A stretch of DNA of 64,000 nucleotides from Antedon mediterranea (taxonomy: Eukaryota > Echinodermata > Crinoidea > Comatulida > Antedonidae): positions 21,203,201 through 21,267,200 of the forward strand of contig NC_092670.1 of assembly GCF_964355755.1 (NCBI RefSeq), in the 5' to 3' direction. Below the pieces are notes generated by a model. That model had not been told where the DNA came from and made no database searches. It worked only from the letters and a program-made list of their open reading frames with translations. Numbering within the stretch: the first letter of the stretch is position 1; each line of letters begins with the position of its first letter. The translations under genes and the position numbers were made by a program. Positions 2,465 through 47,318 of the stretch are shown here, piece by piece.

Positions 2465-3358
<894 letters not shown>

Positions 3359-26600: not shown

Positions 26601-29600
26601 GTATCCTGTATTATACAAATTATTAAAGATATATTGTCCCTCTGAAAAAATAATTTGTTTTACTTTGAAACATTATTTACCTGAGAAAACCGTAATTTAA
26701 AGCAAAAAAATTGTCAAATTGTCTGTCAGACAATTAATTTTTGGTCAGTCAGGGTGAAAATGGCAAAAGGTTTCCTACTTTCTAGGATTTTTATTAGATA
26801 ATCTTAGTGTTTTGACTACTATTTTAACTTGACCACAGTTCTGATTTTTCCATTTTTCCTCTAACTGTGGTTTAATTAACTGATTTTTATTTTTAGAAGT
26901 GAATCATACAGTATAAAATTTGGTTTTTTTTCTTATGGAAGTGAATAACTTCATTAATATTGCAAATGGCCTATTCAAAGTCTGATTTAAAATTTTTTAT
27001 GATTTTAATATCATTTATTGTAATTATATTTTCTGTAATTAATTAATTTGGTTTTTATTTTAGGTGTGCTTATTTACACCGCACCACTGGTGACACTGAA
27101 AGACGTTACCACCTCCGTTATTACAAAACCGGCACATGTGTGCACGAAACCGACGCTAGAGGTCACTGCGTGAAGAATGGTCCTCATTGCGCATTTGCCC
27201 ACGGGCCTCATGACTTGCGGCAACCTGTTTACGATGTCCGTGAATTAATGGCGCAGCAGGACCTGCAGCAGCTGCAGCAAACATCGCCCTCCGAGACTTT
27301 GTCTACAAACGGTAGCGCTGTTAATCCAACTACCACTACGTTAGTTGATAAGGATAAGACTGTACAGGTTGATGATCCAAAATGGCAAGGTGATTAAAAT
27401 ATTTCATAAATTTGATCCCTCATTTAAAAAGCCAAAAATAGAAATGAAAAATAAACTTATGCTTTTTAAACAATGTATAGTTATGATTTATTTATTGTTA
27501 TAATTACTTCCCGTCTTATTTCCAGTATTTTGAATTCCTCCTCTCCTATTGCAAGACTAGTTATTTCACATAAATAAAATAAATAGTCTCATTTTGGCAT
27601 ATCAACCAGGCTTTGAACAAATGTTGTAGCTAGACAAAAACCTCACTAAAAATCATATTCAGACGACTAAACACAGTAGTTGACCTATTTATAATGACCT
27701 TTGCGGATATCACATTATTACATTACTTGTCATTTGACACTATCACATCATGTGACTGATGACTCATCAGGGGAAATCCATGATATTTATTTCACAAAGT
27801 TAGCAATGTGACAGTTAATTGATGAGTACTAAAATTGAATGTGCCTTCATTTAATCATTCATCAATTATAAATTTACATTAATAAATATAACATGACACT
27901 AAATTAGCGAGTGTGGCATAGAAAGCATACTTAATGGCTATTATTTACAGTGTTTATTTATGTACAGTATGAAATAGTGATATTACTGTACAGTAGTTCC
28001 TACTGTTCAGCCTCATTTAAACATGCTAGCAAAGTTGTATTCAGATTAGTTTACATTTACTAACCAGTTATTACAACCTACTTTAAATAATGAACTCTTT
28101 TCTAGAGAAATTTGACAGTTCTTTTCAGAACTAATATACATGGTGTACCGCAAACTTTATATCATCAACATTTGATTTCGCCATGCAAACCTTCAAACAA
28201 TATATTACTGAAAGTTTAAATAATGTGTCATTTATCCTTTTGTATTATGTTTTTCTAGATACGAATCATGTTTTAGCCTACTATAAAACAGAGCCTTGTA
28301 AAAAACCACCTCGGTTATGTAGGCAAGGGTATGCGTGCCCTCATTATCACAATGCCAGAGATAGACGAAGAAGCCCTAAGAAATTAAGATGTTATAGGTA
28401 TGTAACTGTTGCAAAAATAAGTAAAATTTACTCTTGAATTTTGTTTATTTGTATACAGTACTGTTTTTTTTAATTAAGAATAAGTATTATTTTAATACCC
28501 TGCCTACACTAGCAAAATTTATGTGACAAAAAAAAATTTGATGTGCCCATATAAGGACATATGATGTCATATCACTGTCTTGATAATTGAGTACATCACA
28601 CTTTTTTTGTCAAACTAGTTGGATAGTGTAGACAGAGCTTTAACCAAAAACCCTTTTTGCATTTGCTAGTTCATCCAGGCCCTGGTCTGGTTGATGTCAT
28701 ATCAGAGTATTTTTTTATGATCATAATAAAATTATAGTTTTTCGAAAAACATTTTCTATCCAACTTATTTTCACAGGTCAACACCCTGTCCTAATGTGAA
28801 ACATGGTGATGAGTGGGGTGAGATTTCTAATTGTGACCAGGGTGACAATTGTTTATATTGTCACACAAGGACTGAACAGCAGTTTCATCCTGAGATATAT
28901 AAATCAACCAAGTGTAACGATATGCAGCAGACAGGATATTGCCCTCGTGGGCCATTTTGTGCCTTTGCGCATGTAGATCGTAAGTATACGTAACCTGCTT
29001 CAAATTTGTGCAGAGAGTGAATGAATAACTGAAACTTTCAATGTTCACCATTTAAACATAAGAAAACAGTGAAGAAGCATTAAAGGGGGATTCTGGGTTT
29101 AAAATTGCTTTTAAATATCGTTTATTTATTAAATAAAAAATGTTATAACAATATAGACATGTCAGAATGAAGAAATAATAACGAGAAATTAAAAGAATTA
29201 AATTTCATATACATTTTAGGGTAAATTCCTGGAAAGTCTGGTTTTCAGCAGCTTAGGGAAGCTCATTAATATTCATGAGATATTCACAAAATCACGTCAT
29301 CAGTGGATTCCAAACTCGCGACGTCATGTACGTTGTGTTTGTCAACTAAATTTACATCTCTCTCCCCCGTCAAACGACGACCACCCGATCATTGTGAAAT
29401 ACATTTTTTGTAGATTTTCTAAGCTAGGCCTAAAGTGTAATAATAATAACAGTAGTAGCATATATTTATTTGACATTTAATGAAATACAAAATTTAGTAC
29501 AGATTACGGAGTCATAAATTATATACCATTTTTATACCTCGAATAGTACAGATCGTACTAGGCTAGGCCTAGCCTAAATCATTTTTTTTCATGGGTGAGA

Positions 29601-32600
29601 GCCATTCTGACTAGGGATTAAAACGTTAAAACATTGGGACCCATCATACATGGGCCTAGCTAGCCTACTACTACTAAACGATTGGCCCATAAATAACAAA
29701 ACTCAGTGGATTCCAAACCCATCCTATCAACCAAACTCCTAAACAATCTAAACCTAAAACATTCTACAAAATCGGCTGTAAATATCGCCGTCCGCACGTA
29801 TGGTGTCCCGATCGTCTAAGTAGGCCTAAAATAGGCCTAGTTTACTCTCCAAAAAAGCGGATACTACTGCATCAAGCAAGTAGGCCAGGTAGTAGGAAGG
29901 AGACCTAGCCGATCCGGCCCAGTTAAAAATTGAGCTAGCTAGTGTAGTAGACCCTATGCGAATTGATACTACCAGGCCTTTACTAGGCTACACTTCTTAA
30001 AATTAGCAATACTTATACAAATTACAAATATTCCAACTCTCTCATTCGAGCTATATTATCTATACCATTCCGGTAGGTCGAGTAGACCTTCAATCAAATA
30101 CTGTACATCGTTCATGTTGTAATTATAGTTATAGACGGGGTATACTCGACCCGACCAGTTTGGTATTGTATACTGTATCTGCTTATCACGTGACGATGCC
30201 AGGCATGGTCAGGTAGAGCACGTGTATATCGTCGTCTCGCTCTCCTCGCTCAGCAGGAATGTATACGTTACGCTTCATTGATTTTGAAGGCTTTCCCTAA
30301 GTCAGTGCGAAAATCGGCAAACGTAAAGTGCAAACATATCTAATTTTTCACTGTTTTGATGAATTTTCATAGAACATTGACTTTATAAATGGGAAGACCG
30401 ACTAAAATTACATCAGATAAGTATAATTTTACAAAAGTAATTGATATGGTTAATGATAACGAGTCGTCGGAAGATTGACCATTTCACGAATTTCCTATTC
30501 TGTAACACAGTGTCATATCGCCGTAGCTGCACTTGTAATCTGGCCTTATTTCACAGCTTTCGTTCTGCTTCACTGGGCGCTTATATAAATTGAAACTTTT
30601 ACCGTTCAAGAGACAAACAAATATATTTTACATTTTTTACTATTCATTTTAAACCCGGAACCCCCCTTTAAGCCATTATCTGTAAATTGTCCTTAAACTT
30701 CTGTCTAAATCTAAAGTGTTTTTTGCCAAGGTCAAGGCTGAAGTTGTTTTGCCTATTTTAATTAAAGCTCTGTCCACACTATTAAACTTTATGTGAAAAA
30801 AAAATTTGACACATGACATATGGACATGAAGATGTCAGAGCAGAGCACTACCATATTATTTTCCGGCACTTTTTTTGTTAAACTAGTTTGATAGTGTAGA
30901 CAGGCTTAAATTAAGCCTAACTTACATCCAGATCACACTCTTCACCACCCATAGTTTTTTGGTAGCTACCCATTCACCCTTGACGACAGTACTGACCCCC
31001 AACGCCCCCCCCCCCCCCTCCCCCATTTATACTCTCCCAATTTCTTGTCCAAATATAATGGCCTTCTATGGGAGCACTATAATATAAAAAAGGGCCTGGC
31101 TACTGGTAATGTGTACTTAATAATTATCAATTGTTTTGTTATTACACCTGGCCATTGTTAATTTGAGCCTGCTGTATTTCTAACCCTAAGGAATGTTAAC
31201 AATAACAGCATTGATCTATTTTACTTTGCTTGGTTATTTAATTGATTACGCTTTCACGATTTGATATACCTGCTCTAGGTAATAAAGTATGCAATTTATT
31301 CTCAATTCAATAATTGAATAAACAACATTCTGGATACTATAGATTTATACTATACTTTAAGAACAATGCTGCTATTTATGGATACTACTCTATTATCTTA
31401 TATATAACCCAGTGTCCCATGGGCCTATAATATATATCTGTATTATTAGAGAAAATAATATATTTGGGGGTAGGGTTATACTCGGATTGCATTAAATAAT
31501 GGAATGTTTTAAAAGTTAACCTAAATTTTAGGTGAAATTATACTTGAGCATGAGGTTTTACTCAATAATATACTGTATTAAATTATTGATGATTTAAATT
31601 AAGCTCTATTTTGTTTTAAAGCTATATGAAAATATTTAATTTTTTTTATTCAATATTTCACTCAGTGTCTCCTCACAACATTTGATTCCATTCATCCATA
31701 TCACAATTGTTTTAAAAGACTGCTAACAATGATGTATAGCATTAATTAAATCTGTAAATTAAGTAATTCTCTTTAAATCATACTGCACGGTAGGCATAGT
31801 TTATGTTGTCATTATAATAAATAATAATAATAAATAACATTTATAAAGCGCAAGAGACAAAGGTTTCAAAGCGCTGTGTTTTCCAAGATCTGTGCAAGTA
31901 GTAGCGTGTGATTATGCTTCTCTGAAGAGATGAGTTTTGAGTTTAGTTTTAAATGTGATTACAGATTTTGATGAGCGTATTTCGAGGGGTAGAGTGTTCC
32001 AGAGTTTTGGGGCTGCGACAGCGAAAGCACGATCACCGTAAACCGAGTTCTGGAACGGGGTCCAGGTTTTAGAAGAAGTCTGCTGGATGAACGAAGCGTA
32101 GAGTTTGTTGACGGAGTAATGATGTCACATATGTAGGCTGGAGCACATCATTATAGCGTGAACTGACCCAGAAATACTTTGAAAAAGTGTATAATATCTT
32201 TACTTTCGGTTCCTTGATACTTTTAATTACCTGCTAATTACTTTTACTAGATACAAAATGAATTTCTGAAACCTAAATTTATTATTGTTTTTGTTTTTAT
32301 AGAGGAAATGAGTAATGCTAAAAATATATTAGAAGAATTAAACGCACCTGAGGTGTCAATGACTAGTAAACTGTCTTTGTTCCAAGCCCCGGCTACTACA
32401 ATTCAAAGCATGGTAAGTTGGTACTGGCACCTTCCTTCTAAGGTCAAACTCTTGGGTTCAACTCGGGATTGGAGTCATATTTTGGAAAAAACAATCAAAT
32501 GTAACAAACATCTGCACATGCTCACAATCCAGTCGTCAACAATCATCTGCACATGCTCACAATCCAGTCATCAACAGCCATCTGCACATGCTCACAATCC

Positions 32601-35600
32601 AGTCATCAACCACCATCTGCACATGCTTAAAAATTAGTTGAATAAAAAAATAATGTTTATATTTTAATTCTATTCTCAGCAGTCATCAAATATGGTAGTA
32701 ACAACAAATGGAGGTTCAAATGCCCCCATCACTAACAATCTTGGTCCAATAGGAAAGCCTCGTTCTAACAGCCAATCAAGTAATTATTCGTCAGAGAGCG
32801 GATCTTACCAGAAAGCACCTGGCTCGGAACGTGAGGATACGTTGGTAAGTCTATATCACGCTATCATTACTATAAAGTGGGTGCTTAATTTATGTTTAGT
32901 AAAATTCACTTCATTTGAGGCTTAGGAAGTGGAGTTGAAAGAGTCGTGAGTTACAACCATGGCACTAGGTCAGGATTGAAATCTGTACCTTGGGATTAGA
33001 AGGCAAGCACGTTAACCACCAAGCTACAGCTTCATTTTCCAAATTTATGATTAGTAAACAGTGGCAATGCAATTGTTTTTAATTAATATTTTGTGTCACT
33101 TCTTCCTTACCTAATCAACCCTCTTGTACGTATCTATATTGCAAGAGAGTTTGTCCGCATCTTTCCTAGTATGTTATTTTAACCCACATGTATAATTTTT
33201 TTTTTAGTCAAATCTTAAGAAACTTCTTCAAAATGTGGATAACGATGTTAACATTGACAGCCAAGAGAAGAATAGACGGAAACAGAATCTTTTGTTATCA
33301 CATAATATTTCACCTGGTAGCCCATTTGCATCTAGTATATCCAACTGTAACCTTCCTAGCCCAGGAACACCTAGTCCATCTAGCATGTCTGTCAATGCAA
33401 CACCTTTTTACCCACCTAGTGATACAGTTGGCTCAGTTGTTGGTAAGTTCCTAAGTCAATACAATACCTAATACCCAAGGTTATACTAACCTACTATACA
33501 CTGTGTTCGCGCGATTGGGAGTTTGAAATCAACGTTGCATTTCTTGTGTCCCAAGGCAAGACATTCTTATGTTTTCCTCTCTACATTCATGTGTACGCGA
33601 GTACCTGGTAAAGGAAAACACAAATGCCCTGATTATTAGCTGCAACATTATGGGAGCTAAATATGTATTCCATACGTTTTTGACCTCATGACCTGGGTAA
33701 TAATGTGCATTAACATTAAATGCTAAATAAGATTTGACATTATTAAACACAGGTAAATTTAGGTTGTTTCATAAGCCCTGCATGCACAAAAGATCAAATT
33801 CATATTTGTCTCATATACTCTGGGTTTATGTGGTTTATACAAATATTTAATTTACACATTACCATTTCTATTAGGTAATGCTTTGGATGATATTTCAATT
33901 GAAGATGTAACAAATATTGATAGGGAGTTAATAGGTGATAATGATGGGTCATCCGTAGGAAGTAATAGTGCAAGCCTTAGTCATTTAGGTAAGTACTTGG
34001 ATATAAACTTTGTTTTTGCCATCGAGGGACTGTATTCAAATTTGATTTGTTGCGTTGCAATGTATAAATCATATTTGGAAAATATTATAATCCTATCGTA
34101 CATGAGGGTAAACTTGTATTTGTAAAAAAAAAAATATCAGGAATGACACTTGCTACTGGTCCTCTTGATTACAGGACTGCACTGTTTGACCACAGAGCCA
34201 TACAGATTTCTAACCAATACCGTATATCCTCCGGTATAATCCCACCCACCTAGAAAGACCAAAAAATTGGGCCGACCTGGGGTGGTGGAGGACTAATACC
34301 CGGAGAAACCCTGGTTTAAGAAAAAATCGGTAAGGATTTAAATTCATCCGAACTGGCTAGAAAGCATACATCCAGACCAAAAGTAAAATACTGAGACTAT
34401 ACCTGTGGATATGCCTGTTTGTGAAATCAGACATAAAGTAGGGGGTGGGATTAGACCTGAAGTGGGATTATACCCGAGGATATATGGTAATATCACTGTA
34501 CATGACACACTTTCAATGTTATAATTCATTTCACATTTAATTATGCAAACTATTGATATATAATGTCCCATTTACAGGTCTGCTAAGTAGTACAGCTCCT
34601 GTTAATATTCCTATGTCAAGTAGTATGAACCATAAGACTTCCATATCAGATAGTCCTGGCTCGCCTTTAAAAACTCTTCCTCCAGCATTTGTTCCGCAAC
34701 ATATTCAACAACAGCAGCAAATAGAAATGGTAAGTGTATTGGTTATTTGGGTAGAAACTTTTTACGTAATACCATTGGTATTTATAGATTCAGCAGAATT
34801 TTTCATTTTATACAGTAACTTTACTGTATCTGATTTCCATTTACCTTTCTAAATGTGAATTTAATAAGAATTGTCCCCATGTTTGCTGGATACTGAGGAA
34901 ATTCGGATAGGTTTTCTACTGACCCACACAAGCCAGCATTGCAGTGCCTGCCATTATCAGCACACATGGGGGATGATCCTGTACTTTTTTAGTAGTGTAC
35001 CAAGCTCACTGTTTGTAAATAGCACAGACAGTTTGAACCAATGCCTTTTACATGCTAGTCCAATCCCTTACTATTACGCCATGTCACCAATACACATGAT
35101 GCATGTTTATCTCTTTTGAATAGCATATGAAATGATGTCATTTCTACCTAGTTCAAGCCTTGTGGTCGTAGCGTTGAAAATTTAGTTTGGTTAAGGCGCT
35201 ATACAATACGACTTATTATTATTATTTTGTTCTTATCCTTGCTACATTTCTGTATTTCTAGGCAGCAAAAAATGCTTTCTTTAGTCAACCAAATCCACTT
35301 CCAAGTCTACATAAACTAAGCATGATGGATAATATAGGAACGTCTTGCTCTCCTTCTCGTGGACCTCAGTCACCGCTGCTCACAACAATGGCAACAACAT
35401 CGTTATCAAATGTCGAAGTTCAAAGATTACAAGAAGAGGTCATTATATTACAGAAAAAATTACAAAGTTGGGAAGAATCTTGGAATCAAGCAAAGCAGGT
35501 TTGTAAAGCCCTGTCTACACTATCAAAAATGTGATGTGCCTATATATGGACATGATATTATATCACTCCCATGTTTGAGCATATCACTACCATATTTGGG

Positions 35601-37758
35601 CACATCACAATTTTTTTTGTCAAAGCCTGGTGATAAGTGTAGTTAATAAGAATATGTGTATTAAATAATAAGTGGTTTACATTTTTTACATGCTTCTGGG
35701 TGCAAAGGAAATTGATTGGCCTAGTGATAAATCTTTGGTGTTAGGCCTTCATTGGGAACATTTAGACAATAACCTTTGAACCTTCAGGCTGTCATTAGCC
35801 TTTGGGACCTGTTAGGGTTGGGCCTTTGCACTGTTAGTAGTTAGGCCTCCATTGTTAAGCCTCTTCCATTGCACACCACTTACTACAATCTTCTCTTTCT
35901 TTTTATGTTTGAATGAGTAATGCATGTCTGTCTCATTTAATTTTTTTACTAACAAATAATTGCATTTTGTTTTTTTGTATTCTATCAATATGTATTGAAT
36001 GTGGTCTCTCTCTTAACTCTCTTAAATGTGAACACTTTGTTTACCACAGTAACTATATTTCCATGTAGTCTGGTTTTCAGAACATTGTGTTCTACATTGG
36101 GTTGAGTTGGCTGTATGAGGTGTGGTGAATAAGTTTGCTAACCTGCCTTCAATTTGAAATGTCTACTCTTACTCTTCTCATCTGCTTACGTTTCTGCTAA
36201 TATTAGAATAATGTCTACCACTATATGGTGCAGCAGTACTGTATAATTTTATAATACATTATTCAGTTCTTTTACTCCATTGTGTTATTGCAGTTCTTAT
36301 TGTAATGATGTTGACTTAGCAGCATTGTTGTTATGTTGCCATTACTTCCTGGCAGCATATTATTATTTGTTATCATTGTAACATAACATGGTTGTCGATT
36401 GTTTTCTATGTTTTTTGTACTATTACTATGGTAGTAGCATAATTGTTCTAATATAATAGTAATGTTTATTTCTAACCTTGCATGTTGTTTTTCTGATAGG
36501 CATGTGATGCATGGAAGAAAGAGGCGTCTGATTCTAATGAAAAAGCTAAGGTTGCCGATGTGGAAAAGCTGGCTATTATCCAGGCTAAAGAAGAAGTAAG
36601 CCTCCCTTTAGTTAATTTATTTTACAGTTTTGAGTAAGTACCACACTCGTCATGTAAAACAAGAAATTAGCCTTACAAGTAGATAAGTAATCATTGGAGG
36701 CAGGCCCTTATTTTGTTTTGTGTAATTGATATTTAGCATGTTTGTACACAGTTTGATTTGCTTTGTGGGGTGTTTTTTTTTATATTCATTACTAAATACT
36801 AAGATCTTTCAACACTATGAATTAGTATCTGTTCAATAAGTCATCAATAAGGTCAAAGTTCACAACAAAGTACTGTATACTATGTTTAGAATAAATGTAT
36901 CCAATCTGTGTATGGGTAGGTCATCTACATATCAGCTCTTGTAGATTTTGTCTTTATTTCAGAATTTTTAGCATTACTTACCATTAAGTATTGTTAATTA
37001 TTTTTATATTTTCTAGGCTAAAGAAGAAGCAAAAGTATTAAAACTAGAAATTGAAGGTTTAAGTGGAGGTCCTCATTTACATGTGTTAAACCGGACATCA
37101 GAACTTAACCATCTTCCTCTTCATCAATTAAAGAAATTACAGCTTCAACTGAAATCAGATCTTGAGAAATTAGAAAAGGTTTGTTGTATACCTATACTAA
37201 ATATTTGATCATTCTATAAAGTAGAGAAGTGAAGACAAGAAGGAATTTAATATAACATACATTAGTACAGTAGAACCTCCTTTGGTAAACCCCTATTCAG
37301 GGGACAGCTTACCCTTTAAGGAGACACTTTTCCGTGAAACAAATAAGGAGAAATATATGATACCACACTACAGCCAAACCCTATTCATGGGACATTTTTT
37401 CTGGTTCTTTAAGGTGTCCCCTTAATAGGAGTTATACTCTGTGTTTACAGTAGTAAGCCATTGTAATACGCGTGTACATGCTCACCCTGCGATAAGTAAA
37501 CGTTTATTGAATGTGTGCCATGCAAAAGAGTATATCAAAATGTTAGTTTTAGTAATATTCAGTGTCTTCTATTTTACTTTTCAGGTAATTCACATACGAG
37601 AGGGATCATGTTGCTACGGCTGTCAAGATAAAGCGCGGAACGTGGTTGTCACTCCGTGTTATCACCTTGTATTTTGCGATTTATGCGCTCCTAATAAATC
37701 AACATGTAGTATTTGTCATGGTCACGTAGCTCAAAGACTAACAATACCAAATTTATAG
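20660..37758 (+). CDS. UNK: RING finger protein unkempt (six CCCH fingers plus RING)
   Basis: Exons: 20660-20730, 20834-21043, 27064-27389, 28259-28397, 28777-28979, 32303-32412, 32680-32844, 33208-33442, 33875-33988, 34578-34729, 35262-35498, 36500-36595, 37017-37178, 37585-37758. They sum to 2394 nt, 797 aa, close to human UNK (810). Six CCCH zinc fingers occupy about residues 35-315, with motifs such as K-T-E-P-C-K-K-P-P-R-L-C and C-N-D-M-Q-Q near-identical to vertebrates. A low-complexity S/P-rich middle follows, with F-Y-P-P-S-D-T-V and S-T-A-P-V-N-I-P. Next come a coiled coil with S-W-E-E-S-W-N-Q-A-K-Q and a C-terminal RING (about 740-797). Unkempt binds UAG-rich mRNA and represses translation, and controls neuronal shape in mammals. 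The start ATG opens an N-terminus running into the conserved Q-P-E-K-P-x-H-Y-T. Exon 11 has a weak GTTTGT donor next to a MITE. Confidence 0.96.
23218..25660. mobile_element. TTAA-flanked element in unkempt intron 2
   Basis: The ends are AGATGTATTGTCCCCC and its complement, flanked by TTAA on both sides (23214-23217 and 25661-25664). About 100 bp of diverged inverted subterminal sequence includes AAGTTATTCACTT on both sides. At 2.4 kb with no transposase frame it is non-autonomous. The TTAA target fits piggyBac-type transposition. Confidence 0.75.
26627..27005. mobile_element. Truncated copy of the TTAA element next to unkempt exon 3
   Basis: The left end AGATATATTGTCCCTC follows TTAA (26623-26626). 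The right part (GAAGTGAATAACTT at about 26938 onward) matches the subterminal region of the family, but the last bases are missing. It ends within about 60 bases of the exon 3 acceptor. Confidence 0.6.
28500..28641. mobile_element. MITE copy 2 (AGCTCTGTCTACACTATCAA family)
   Basis: A palindromic element of about 140 bp with GATGTGCCCATAT and TTTTTTTGTCAAACTAGTT inside. It lies in unkempt intron 4. Confidence 0.8.
29084..30667. mobile_element. TTAA-flanked 1.6-kb element, second family, in unkempt intron 5
   Basis: The ends are AGGGGGATTCTGGGTTTAAA and the complement of AGGGGGGTTCCGGGTTTAAA, flanked by TTAA (29080-29083 and 30668-30671). No transposase frame. The end sequence differs from the 23218-25660 family. 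Confidence 0.7.
30766..30908. mobile_element. MITE copy 3 (AGCTCTGTCTACACTATCAA family)
   Basis: Same family, with CTCTGTCCACACTATTAAAC and an inverted GTTTGATAGTGTAGACAG end. Unkempt intron 5. Confidence 0.75.
30999..31018 (+). repeat. Poly(C) tract
   Basis: A run of C residues of about 17-20 bases, interrupted at its right end by T. Confidence 0.8.
31820..32150 (-). repeat. Interspersed repeat with TTTATAAAGCGC head
   Basis: It contains AACATTTATAAAGCGC, GATGAGTTTTGAGTTTA and GAGTGTTCCAGAGTTTTGG, a repeat type I associate with invertebrate deuterostome genomes (non-LTR or SINE related). An (AAT)n stretch borders its left side. Orientation is uncertain. Confidence 0.5.
32510..32627 (+). 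repeat. 35-bp tandem repeat, about 3.4 copies
   Basis: The unit begins CATCTGCACATGCTCACAAT and lies just after unkempt exon 6, in intron 6. Confidence 0.85.
32930..33036 (-). mobile_element. tRNA-like SINE fragment
   Basis: The minus strand reads AGCTTGGTGGTTAACGTGCT, then a region like a B box. It is the same head sequence as the copies at 62376 and 55671. Unkempt intron 7. Confidence 0.6.
34220..34487. mobile_element. TA-flanked 268-bp MITE in unkempt intron 9
   Basis: The ends are CCGTATATCCTCCGGTATAA and the complement of CCATATATCCTCGGGTATAA, with TA on both sides. Tc1/mariner-type by target. Confidence 0.7.
35508..35643. mobile_element. MITE copy 4, directly behind unkempt exon 11 donor
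   Basis: The element begins about 10 bases after the exon 11 end at 35498. It has the family's GTCTACACTATCAAAA and CACATCACAATTTTTTTTGT features. Confidence 0.75.
37268..37440. mobile_element. CAGTAGAACC-family MITE in unkempt intron 13
   Basis: It begins CAGTAGAACCTCC after TA and contains CCCCTATTCAGGGGACA and GTCCCCTTAATAGGAG. Related sequence occurs at 38170-38330, 62152-62330 and 62975-63050. Confidence 0.6.
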
Positions 37759-45499: not shown

Positions 45500-45870
45500 A
45501 GGAAGCAAGTTTTAATTGCAAATTTATTTGGCTGATGCAATACAAAATGGTCGTCATCAAATTATTTATAACTTTACGCGTAAAGAAAGTAACACATTTT
45601 TAAACATTATACTTTAAAATAATCAAAAATATTACCTTTTTACTACACAATTAAATTTAATTTTCGGCACTAACTGGTTTACAATATTTAAAAAGCGGTA
45701 ACGTTTGTGGTTTTTATAAACAATTGTTTGCGGATGGATATTACTTTTTGCATGAATTAGTGTTATTAGGCCAATACACGTTTTGCTTCCGGAGAGTTTC
45801 GCGCAATATCGTCAATTTCATTTCCACCACTATCAAAGAAAGAAGTACGTCTGTTTGCTCAAAGGGCAAA

Positions 45871-45882
45871 ATGGAGTTTTAA
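45871..45882 (+). promoter_or_regulatory. ATF4 uORF1 (three codons)
   Basis: ATG GAG TTT TAA in the 5' leader. A three-residue uORF1 is the known layout in vertebrate ATF4, where it promotes re-initiation of scanning ribosomes. Confidence 0.7.
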
Positions 45883-45930
45883 TTCGTAATCACCCGCCAG
45901 GCATATCAAACATACGGTGCACCAGTCACC

Positions 45931-46320
45931 ATGGCGTAAGTAGCATATTATAATTAATTAAAATTTTGATAATTTTTAGGCGTTTTATTTATGTGTTTGC
46001 GGTGAAGTTTAGGGCCAGTGAGTGTGGTGGGTGGATTTTTTGTTTTGAGTGAACGACGACGTGGCAAATACCGAATTTGCATTTTTTTGCATGCATCCGT
46101 GTCGTGCATAGCCTATGATGGGCGCGCCCTATCTTGTATTAAAATAATAATAACACTTGTTTTTAAATTCTTTCATAGACAATTCAAAATGGAAACCAAA
46201 CCGCTAAAGCAGAAAGAATACAAATCATTTGAAAAAGATGAATACGACTATGGATTTCAGCGAGCAATGGATCTGGGATCTGGAGGAGCCCGAGCTCTTC
46301 TCTTCCCTCCCACTCCTTGA
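45931..46320 (+). promoter_or_regulatory. ATF4 uORF2, spliced and overlapping the main ORF
   Basis: It starts at ATG 45931 in a strong context (CACCATGG). The exon ends at 45935 with GTAAGT and joins 46179 in frame, giving a 48-codon ORF that stops at TGA 46318-46320. It overlaps the main CDS out of frame by 83 nt counted from ATG 46238. In vertebrate ATF4, an overlapping uORF2 blocks the main ORF until eIF2-alpha is phosphorylated. Confidence 0.75.
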
Positions 46321-47318
46321 TCAAAAGGCTCATACAGACATCCACAATGCTGTGGAAGATTCTGATCTGATCAATTCAACAGGAAGCCTCTTGGATCAAC
46401 TGGAAAATGCTACATTTTCTACAGGTAATATTCCTGGAAAAATAATAAAATAAGGCCCAGACCAACATAAAAATAGTGAAATATATTTATGAGTAGTGTA
46501 GTGACCAATTCTCGTAAGTGATTATGTTTTGTCTTACAGATAAAGAGTTGTTTCCCGATTGGATGTCTGAAAAAATGAGCCTAAATTTCTTAGAAGATAT
46601 TCAGGAGCTGTCTAACGTAGATTCAGATGAGCCACTTCCGGTTTCAAGCTTGCTTCCTCTGGAAAACGCCCTAGAGGAAGAAGAAAATGCAGTAGATGAT
46701 GAGAAATCGGAACTTACAGATCTCGAAATTCTTAACCAACTGGTTGCTTATTCAGCCAACATCCAACCTGTTGAAGGAGGCAGCACAGTAGTGGAGGATT
46801 CAATGACTGTCGATCAGGAATTTTGGGATGCTCTGAGTGCGACATCTGGCCTACCCAGCCCTGCTTCATCTGATGATGCGTCATTATCCCCACAATCTCC
46901 TGTATCCTCCGAAGACACTGATGATGTTTTTGTGTTAAGATCCCCTGTAGTTGACACTTTGACTGTAATACCAACTGTAACTGTAGATCCCCTTCCATCC
47001 GTAGACACTAAATTAGTCAAAACATCTCCAAAATCAAAAGCTAGGTCAGTCCTTAAGACTGCGCATGGCACCGTTAAACCTTCCAGAAGAGAACGAAAAA
47101 AGGACCAGAACAAACAGGCGGCCACTCGTTACCGTGAAAAGAAGCGAACTGAGACAATGGCCATCAGAAGCGAGGTCGAGGAGTTAGAAAATCGCAATAC
47201 AGAGTTAAAAGACACCGTAGAATCGATGACAAAAGAAATTAAATATTTGAAAGATTTATTACAAGAGGTTTTAACAGTAAAGGGTCAGTTAAAGGAGATG
47301 GGACATTCAAAGGCTTAA
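46238..47318 (+). CDS. ATF4: ATF4-type bZIP transcription factor
   Basis: Coding exons are 46238-46424 and 46540-47318; the joined CDS is 966 nt, 321 aa (human ATF4 351). A non-coding leader exon ends at 45935. The acidic N-terminus is followed by S/T/D-rich stretches. The C-terminal bZIP occupies about residues 245-305. Its basic region contains N-K-Q-A-A-T-R-Y-R-E-K-K-R, and the zipper ends in K-E-I-K-Y-L-K-D-L, both closely matching ATF4/ATF5. The product is a nuclear activator of amino-acid-supply and stress genes in the integrated stress response. Its own translation is very likely controlled by the two upstream ORFs. The start could be ATG 46238 or the in-frame ATG 46250. ATF5 is the close paralogue in vertebrates; an invertebrate copy may represent the single ATF4/5 ancestor. 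Confidence 0.93.

Follow-up and report, generated by a model that had tools for sequence, protein, structure and literature searches.

What kind of translational control does the leader of the ATF4 gene in Antedon mediterranea carry? An initial annotation of the 64,000-nucleotide stretch analysed here (contig NC_092670.1, positions 21,203,201 to 21,267,200, hereafter the window) had described a vertebrate-style arrangement of two upstream open reading frames (uORFs), the second of which would be made or destroyed by splicing. We find it very probable that the leader is of the conserved metazoan ATF4 type with paired uORFs, and that it acts by delayed reinitiation, with two capture AUGs following one another. 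The second of these AUGs, a strong in-frame ATG at 46189 within uORF2, had been missed in that annotation.

The gene itself has two coding exons, given here in coordinates of the window:
46238-46424, forward strand: ATF4 coding sequence (CDS), coding exon 1, with ATG 46238 and an alternative in-frame ATG at 46250
46540-47318, forward strand: ATF4 CDS, coding exon 2, containing the bZIP domain match

The gene is ATF4. The CDS read from 46238 over both exons encodes 321 residues, with an ATF4-type basic region and zipper that matched Pfam bZIP_1 (E 1.1e-12). ATF-4 was the best match among PDB sequences (3.3e-13), and the top sequence other than ATF4 was ATF-2 (0.0057; six sequences with E up to 0.1). 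A search of the genome detected one ATF4 locus, its two matches being both exons of one gene. Comparison of the N-terminal part with a human ATF4 sequence gave a local score of 52, which none of 500 shuffles reached, by a narrow margin (highest 50), and an M.F start and a DWMxEKM segment were in register with that sequence. This N-terminal similarity therefore supports 46238 or 46250 as the start of the CDS.

Upstream of the CDS, the leader contains the following elements:
45871-45882, forward strand: uORF1, ATG GAG TTT TAA (MEF and stop), context GGCAAA before ATGG, with a purine at -3 and G at +4
45931-45935, forward strand: first start of uORF2 (ATG GC), at the end of predicted exon 1, context GTCACC before ATGG
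45936-46178, forward strand: predicted intron 1, 243 nucleotides (nt), GTAAGT...TTTCATAG, breaking codon 2 of uORF2 after two nucleotides
46179-46320, forward strand: remainder of uORF2 in exon 2, with the stop TGA at 46318-46320
46189-46191, forward strand: second in-frame start of uORF2, TTCAAA before ATGG, in strong context and wholly inside exon 2
46238-46320, forward strand: out-of-frame overlap of uORF2 with the CDS, 83 nt from CDS ATG 46238
45734-45760, forward strand: possible extra uORF or uORFs, ATG 45734 and ATG 45752 with a common stop at 45758-45760, which would need a transcription start that far upstream

The coordinates in the initial annotation were reproduced for the three codons of uORF1 and for a uORF2 that runs from strong-context 45931, in frame across the intron, into an 83-nt overlap with the CDS, the junction being a predicted one. 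Spliced at this predicted junction (45935/46179), uORF2 would comprise 147 nt, that is, 48 residues and a stop (peptide MAQFKMETKPLKQKEYKSFEKDEYDYGFQRAMDLGSGGARALLFPPTP). The unspliced reading from ATG 45931 is ATG GCG TAA, as had also been noted, and stops after two codons. ATG 46189 alone opens a uORF of 43 residues that overlaps the CDS with or without splicing of intron 1; the overlap from AUG 45931 requires splicing and that from AUG 46189 does not. Three upstream ATGs occur in the predicted mRNA from 45761 up to the CDS; none of them shares the CDS frame, and both uORF2 ATGs are in one frame. AUG 45931, AUG 46189 and CDS AUG 46238 follow the uORF1 stop in this mRNA at distances of 48, 63 and 112 nt. 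The four ATGs in intron 1 (45991, 46091, 46115 and 46118) all begin short frames and would add short uORFs only upon retention. With its three codons in strong context, uORF1 is short and putatively permissive for reinitiation.

This anatomy directly fits the delayed-reinitiation model, which is set out together with its current challenges in PMC12839439. Ribosomes would translate uORF1, remain on the mRNA and scan onward. With plentiful eIF2 ternary complex, they would reinitiate at the uORF2 AUG at 45931, or else at the in-frame AUG 46189, and would stop at 46320, beyond the start codon of ATF4. Phosphorylation of eIF2-alpha at Ser51 would slow recharging, and more scanning subunits would bypass both AUGs and start at 46238 or 46250. 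Two consecutive capture AUGs in the same frame may hold basal ATF4 low despite the short spacing. The eIF2-alpha encoded in the genome keeps an intact sequence around Ser51 (SELSRRRIRSINKLIRVGKNE). Induction of ATF4 translation by eIF2-alpha phosphorylation is putative here, this region being the part of the target that was seen. A search of the genome for the W2 domain gave five matches, and of the three loci that were read, one looks like 5MP/BZW.

Translation of uORF2 could have a further consequence. Its stop precedes the exon junction 46424/46540 by 104 nt, and nonsense-mediated decay is associated with stops more than 50-55 nt upstream of an exon junction. Translating uORF2 could therefore expose the mRNA to nonsense-mediated decay.

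Could such a pair of uORFs arise by chance? We generated 4,000 dinucleotide shuffles of the leader for each of four assumed starts (45762, 45800, 45840 and 45860). An overlapping out-of-frame uORF of any kind was found in 38-51% of the shuffled leaders; counting only those with a strong start, the share was 7-14%. Depending on the assumed start, 0.18-0.43% contained the full pair, consisting of a strong uORF1 of at most five codons and a strong overlapping uORF2. The pair is therefore non-random, while overlap alone is weak evidence. Among 5,000 synonymous recodings, the overlap was at least 83 nt in 26% and exactly 83 nt in 4.8%, so that the precise length carries no information; with this last frequency, and an overlap of 125 nt in Drosophila, homology argued from a common overlap length was left unsupported. 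When the exon-2 leader was subjected to 20,000 mononucleotide shuffles, 24% kept the frame open as far as the CDS. A second in-frame ATG was present in 24% of these open frames, and one in strong context in 2.4%. The second uORF2 AUG may thus be of chance origin, at a frequency of 2.4% of open shuffled frames.

The rarity of the pair also bears on where transcription starts. If it started downstream of 45882, uORF2 alone would repress ATF4, with leaky scanning. The transcription start is a predicted one, which leaves room for this arrangement. However, uORF1 has a strong context, the combination of a short uORF followed by an overlapping one is rare in the shuffles, and paired uORFs are reported as the norm in metazoa (PMC4176352). 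We hold a start downstream of uORF1 to be very unlikely. The initial annotation had considered that a start downstream of 45931 would refute the proposed control. With such a start, uORF1 and the first start codon of uORF2 would be lost, but the inhibitory frame would stay unless transcription also began downstream of 46189.

The proposal that ATF4 output is set by regulated splicing of intron 1, through which uORF2 would be made or lost, draws on the break in codon 2 and on the two-codon unspliced reading described above. A precedent is found in Drosophila, where Xrp1 isoforms lacking uORFs are produced by alternative splicing in cell competition (PMC13268129). However, unspliced RNA would still have a strong overlapping uORF from ATG 46189, and the retained intron would bring in its four ATGs. 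Moreover, the same source describes the Xrp1 isoforms as showing no significant change in endoplasmic reticulum stress, and according to it there is little scope for regulated splicing under the delayed-reinitiation model. Since exon 2 contains the whole of ATG 46189, the inhibitory uORF would survive both the retention of intron 1 and a start within that intron. The earlier claim that splicing decides the existence of this uORF is contradicted, and a retained intron 1 as its off-switch is rejected. We consider a splice-controlled switch of ATF4 output extremely improbable.

The presence of uORF1 and the complete uORF2 on one transcript rests on predicted splice sites, and both the 45935/46179 junction and the transcription start are predictions from sequence. 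We scored splice sites using a generic matrix. Among the 14 AG sites in 45938-46239, the acceptor at 46178 (TTTCATAG) ranked first, with a score of 1.01. We also read 18 exon ends by eye in the genome, 10 in other loci and 8 in the window, including the second intron of ATF4; some of these were ambiguous by one or two bases, and three further strings had no match. The base at donor position +3 was A in 16 of the 18, G in one and T in one. The donor at 45936 has A at this position, and the three donors that outscore it (GTGGGT, GTGAGT and GTGAAG) carry G. The predominance of A at +3 therefore favours 45936 as the probable donor.

Some observations weigh against the delayed-reinitiation reading in the form given above. 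Of the 36 GT sites in 45700-46239, the donor at 45936 (GC/GTAAGT) came no higher than fourth, behind 46027, 46018 and 46002, and the second-ranked acceptor, 46111, scored 0.15, near 46178. A stem-loop, SL3, is conserved in the uORF2/CDS overlap of vertebrates (PMC11058473), but the overlap here folded no better than shuffled sequence (minimum free energy -23 kcal/mol, z -0.25, 79 of 200 shuffles folding as well or better), and an SL3-like hairpin was rejected. Exon 2 likewise displayed no unusual structure (z -0.19, with 81 of 200 shuffles at least as stable).

The ranking of donors may indicate that either 46018, 46027 or 46002 is used in place of 45936, or that transcription starts within the intron. 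AUG 45931 would then be a second permissive mini-uORF (MA and stop) or absent, and inhibition would come from the uORF2 beginning at 46189, which is complete within exon 2. The higher matrix scores of these donors speak for this arrangement, and the A at +3 in 16 of 18 exon ends, present at 45936 and missing from all three, speaks against it; on balance we regard it as unlikely. A related variant is that, through the choice between 45936 and 46018, 46027 or 46002, or through intron retention, AUG 45931 ceases to be the first start of the inhibitory uORF2 and becomes another permissive uORF of two codons, the inhibitory frame being preserved by AUG 46189 in every case. There is only a slim chance of this. 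If true, splicing would not be an on/off control of inhibition but would adjust the number of reinitiation cycles ahead of the switch and, with it, the stress threshold of ATF4. In the available parts of the literature on ATF4 leader splicing (including PMC4764583, PMC10441410, PMC6966827 and PMC13268129), the position of an intron relative to uORF2 in other animals was not found.

Other features were seen around the leader and elsewhere in the window. A sequence resembling a C/EBP-ATF response element (TGATGCAAT) is present at 45533-45541, upstream of the leader, and one resembling an unfolded protein response element (GACGTGGC) at 46058-46065, in intron 1. The former occurs three times in the window against 1.12 expected (10 of 100 shuffles having at least three) and the latter once against 0.33 expected (27 of 100 having at least one). 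With frequencies so near chance, neither was retained as a meaningful transcription-factor motif. No Rfam element reached its gathering threshold in the window. Positions 454-1726 are repeat-rich, with long frames in several readings (MQYTPIV-like units) and in both orientations. On the reverse strand, 2649-3044 holds a histone H3-like open frame. It ends partway through H3, in the manner of an exon at a splice site, and perhaps belongs to an intron-containing gene of the H3.3 type. The stretch 27047-37755 has open frames whose cysteine patterns are of the CCCH and RING types and which resemble Unkempt.

Three further families were searched for in the genome. The search for the COX1 family, aimed at a mitochondrial copy, gave no match. 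The search for the GFP family also gave none, which is uninformative without a control signal. The homeodomain search gave 16 matches with E up to 1e-12, of which 14 loci were read, two matches on contig C2 outside the Hox cluster described next being left out. Twelve of the loci (L006-L010, L012-L016, L018 and L019) fall in one stretch of C2 at 7.83-8.21 Mb. Eleven of these share a strand, and the one next to the posterior end is inverted. Their signatures suggest Hox1-8, 9/10 and three 11/13 types, in canonical order and apparently complete; the two loci on C5 (L011 and L017) look ParaHox-like. A full set of 12 Hox genes is likely for the ancestor of echinoderms and hemichordates (PMC4066700), and intact, canonically ordered clusters are reported from enteropneust hemichordates and some echinoderms (PMC6307216). 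By itself, the cluster would suggest an ambulacrarian genome, perhaps that of a hemichordate.

How does this leader compare with those already described? A literature search for echinoderm ATF4 uORFs found nothing. PMC7530721 surveys animal uORFs with conserved peptides, and its main text mentions ATF4 in the introduction and the references and nowhere else. Paired ATF4 uORFs are reported in all metazoa with examinable 5' untranslated regions except nematodes, with Hydra and Aplysia named (PMC4176352), so that the leader is a new example of an arrangement already known across most animals, rather than an unexpected occurrence of a vertebrate feature. The label 'vertebrate-style' holds insofar as mammals, too, have a short uORF1 and a uORF2 that overlaps the CDS out of frame; it fails in that the layout is not specific to vertebrates (PMC4176352, PMC4433282). 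The main value of the locus is as a data point on the antiquity of the integrated stress response, to which it adds an invertebrate deuterostome example of the paired-uORF leader.

Mammalian ATF4 likewise has a short uORF1 (PMC12839439 counts four codons for human, presumably including the stop), a uORF2 that overlaps the CDS, and closely spaced in-frame CDS AUGs (PMC12839439, PMC11058473). The human uORF2 has sixty codons, 27 of them overlapping the CDS (PMC12839439), compared to 49 including the stop here. The human start-stop uORF has no counterpart among the ATGs found in this leader, and the second uORF2 AUG present here is without a mammalian report in the available text of PMC12839439 and PMC11058473. 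Aplysia and Hydra, according to the text and the legend to Fig. 4B of PMC4176352, also have paired uORFs outside arthropods and vertebrates; unlike in those leaders, no ATG in another frame lies here between 45931 and the CDS.

The arthropod ATF4/crc leaders (Tribolium, Drosophila and others) are alike in having a short uORF1 and a longer, out-of-frame uORF2 that overlaps the CDS (PMC4176352, PMC4433282), and mutation of the start codons demonstrated opposing roles for the two Drosophila uORFs (PMC4433282). The Drosophila overlap of 125 nt differs from the 83 nt here, the likeness being one of description and not of alignment. Arthropods also have an extra upstream uORF in weak context; a counterpart here would require transcription to begin upstream of 45752. 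They share, in addition, a second in-frame strong AUG inside uORF2, which has been published for arthropods (PMC4176352). Its presence in a probable non-arthropod is, together with the possible ancestry of the intron position inside uORF2, of mild remaining interest, and hints, without proving it, that the second capture codon may predate arthropods.
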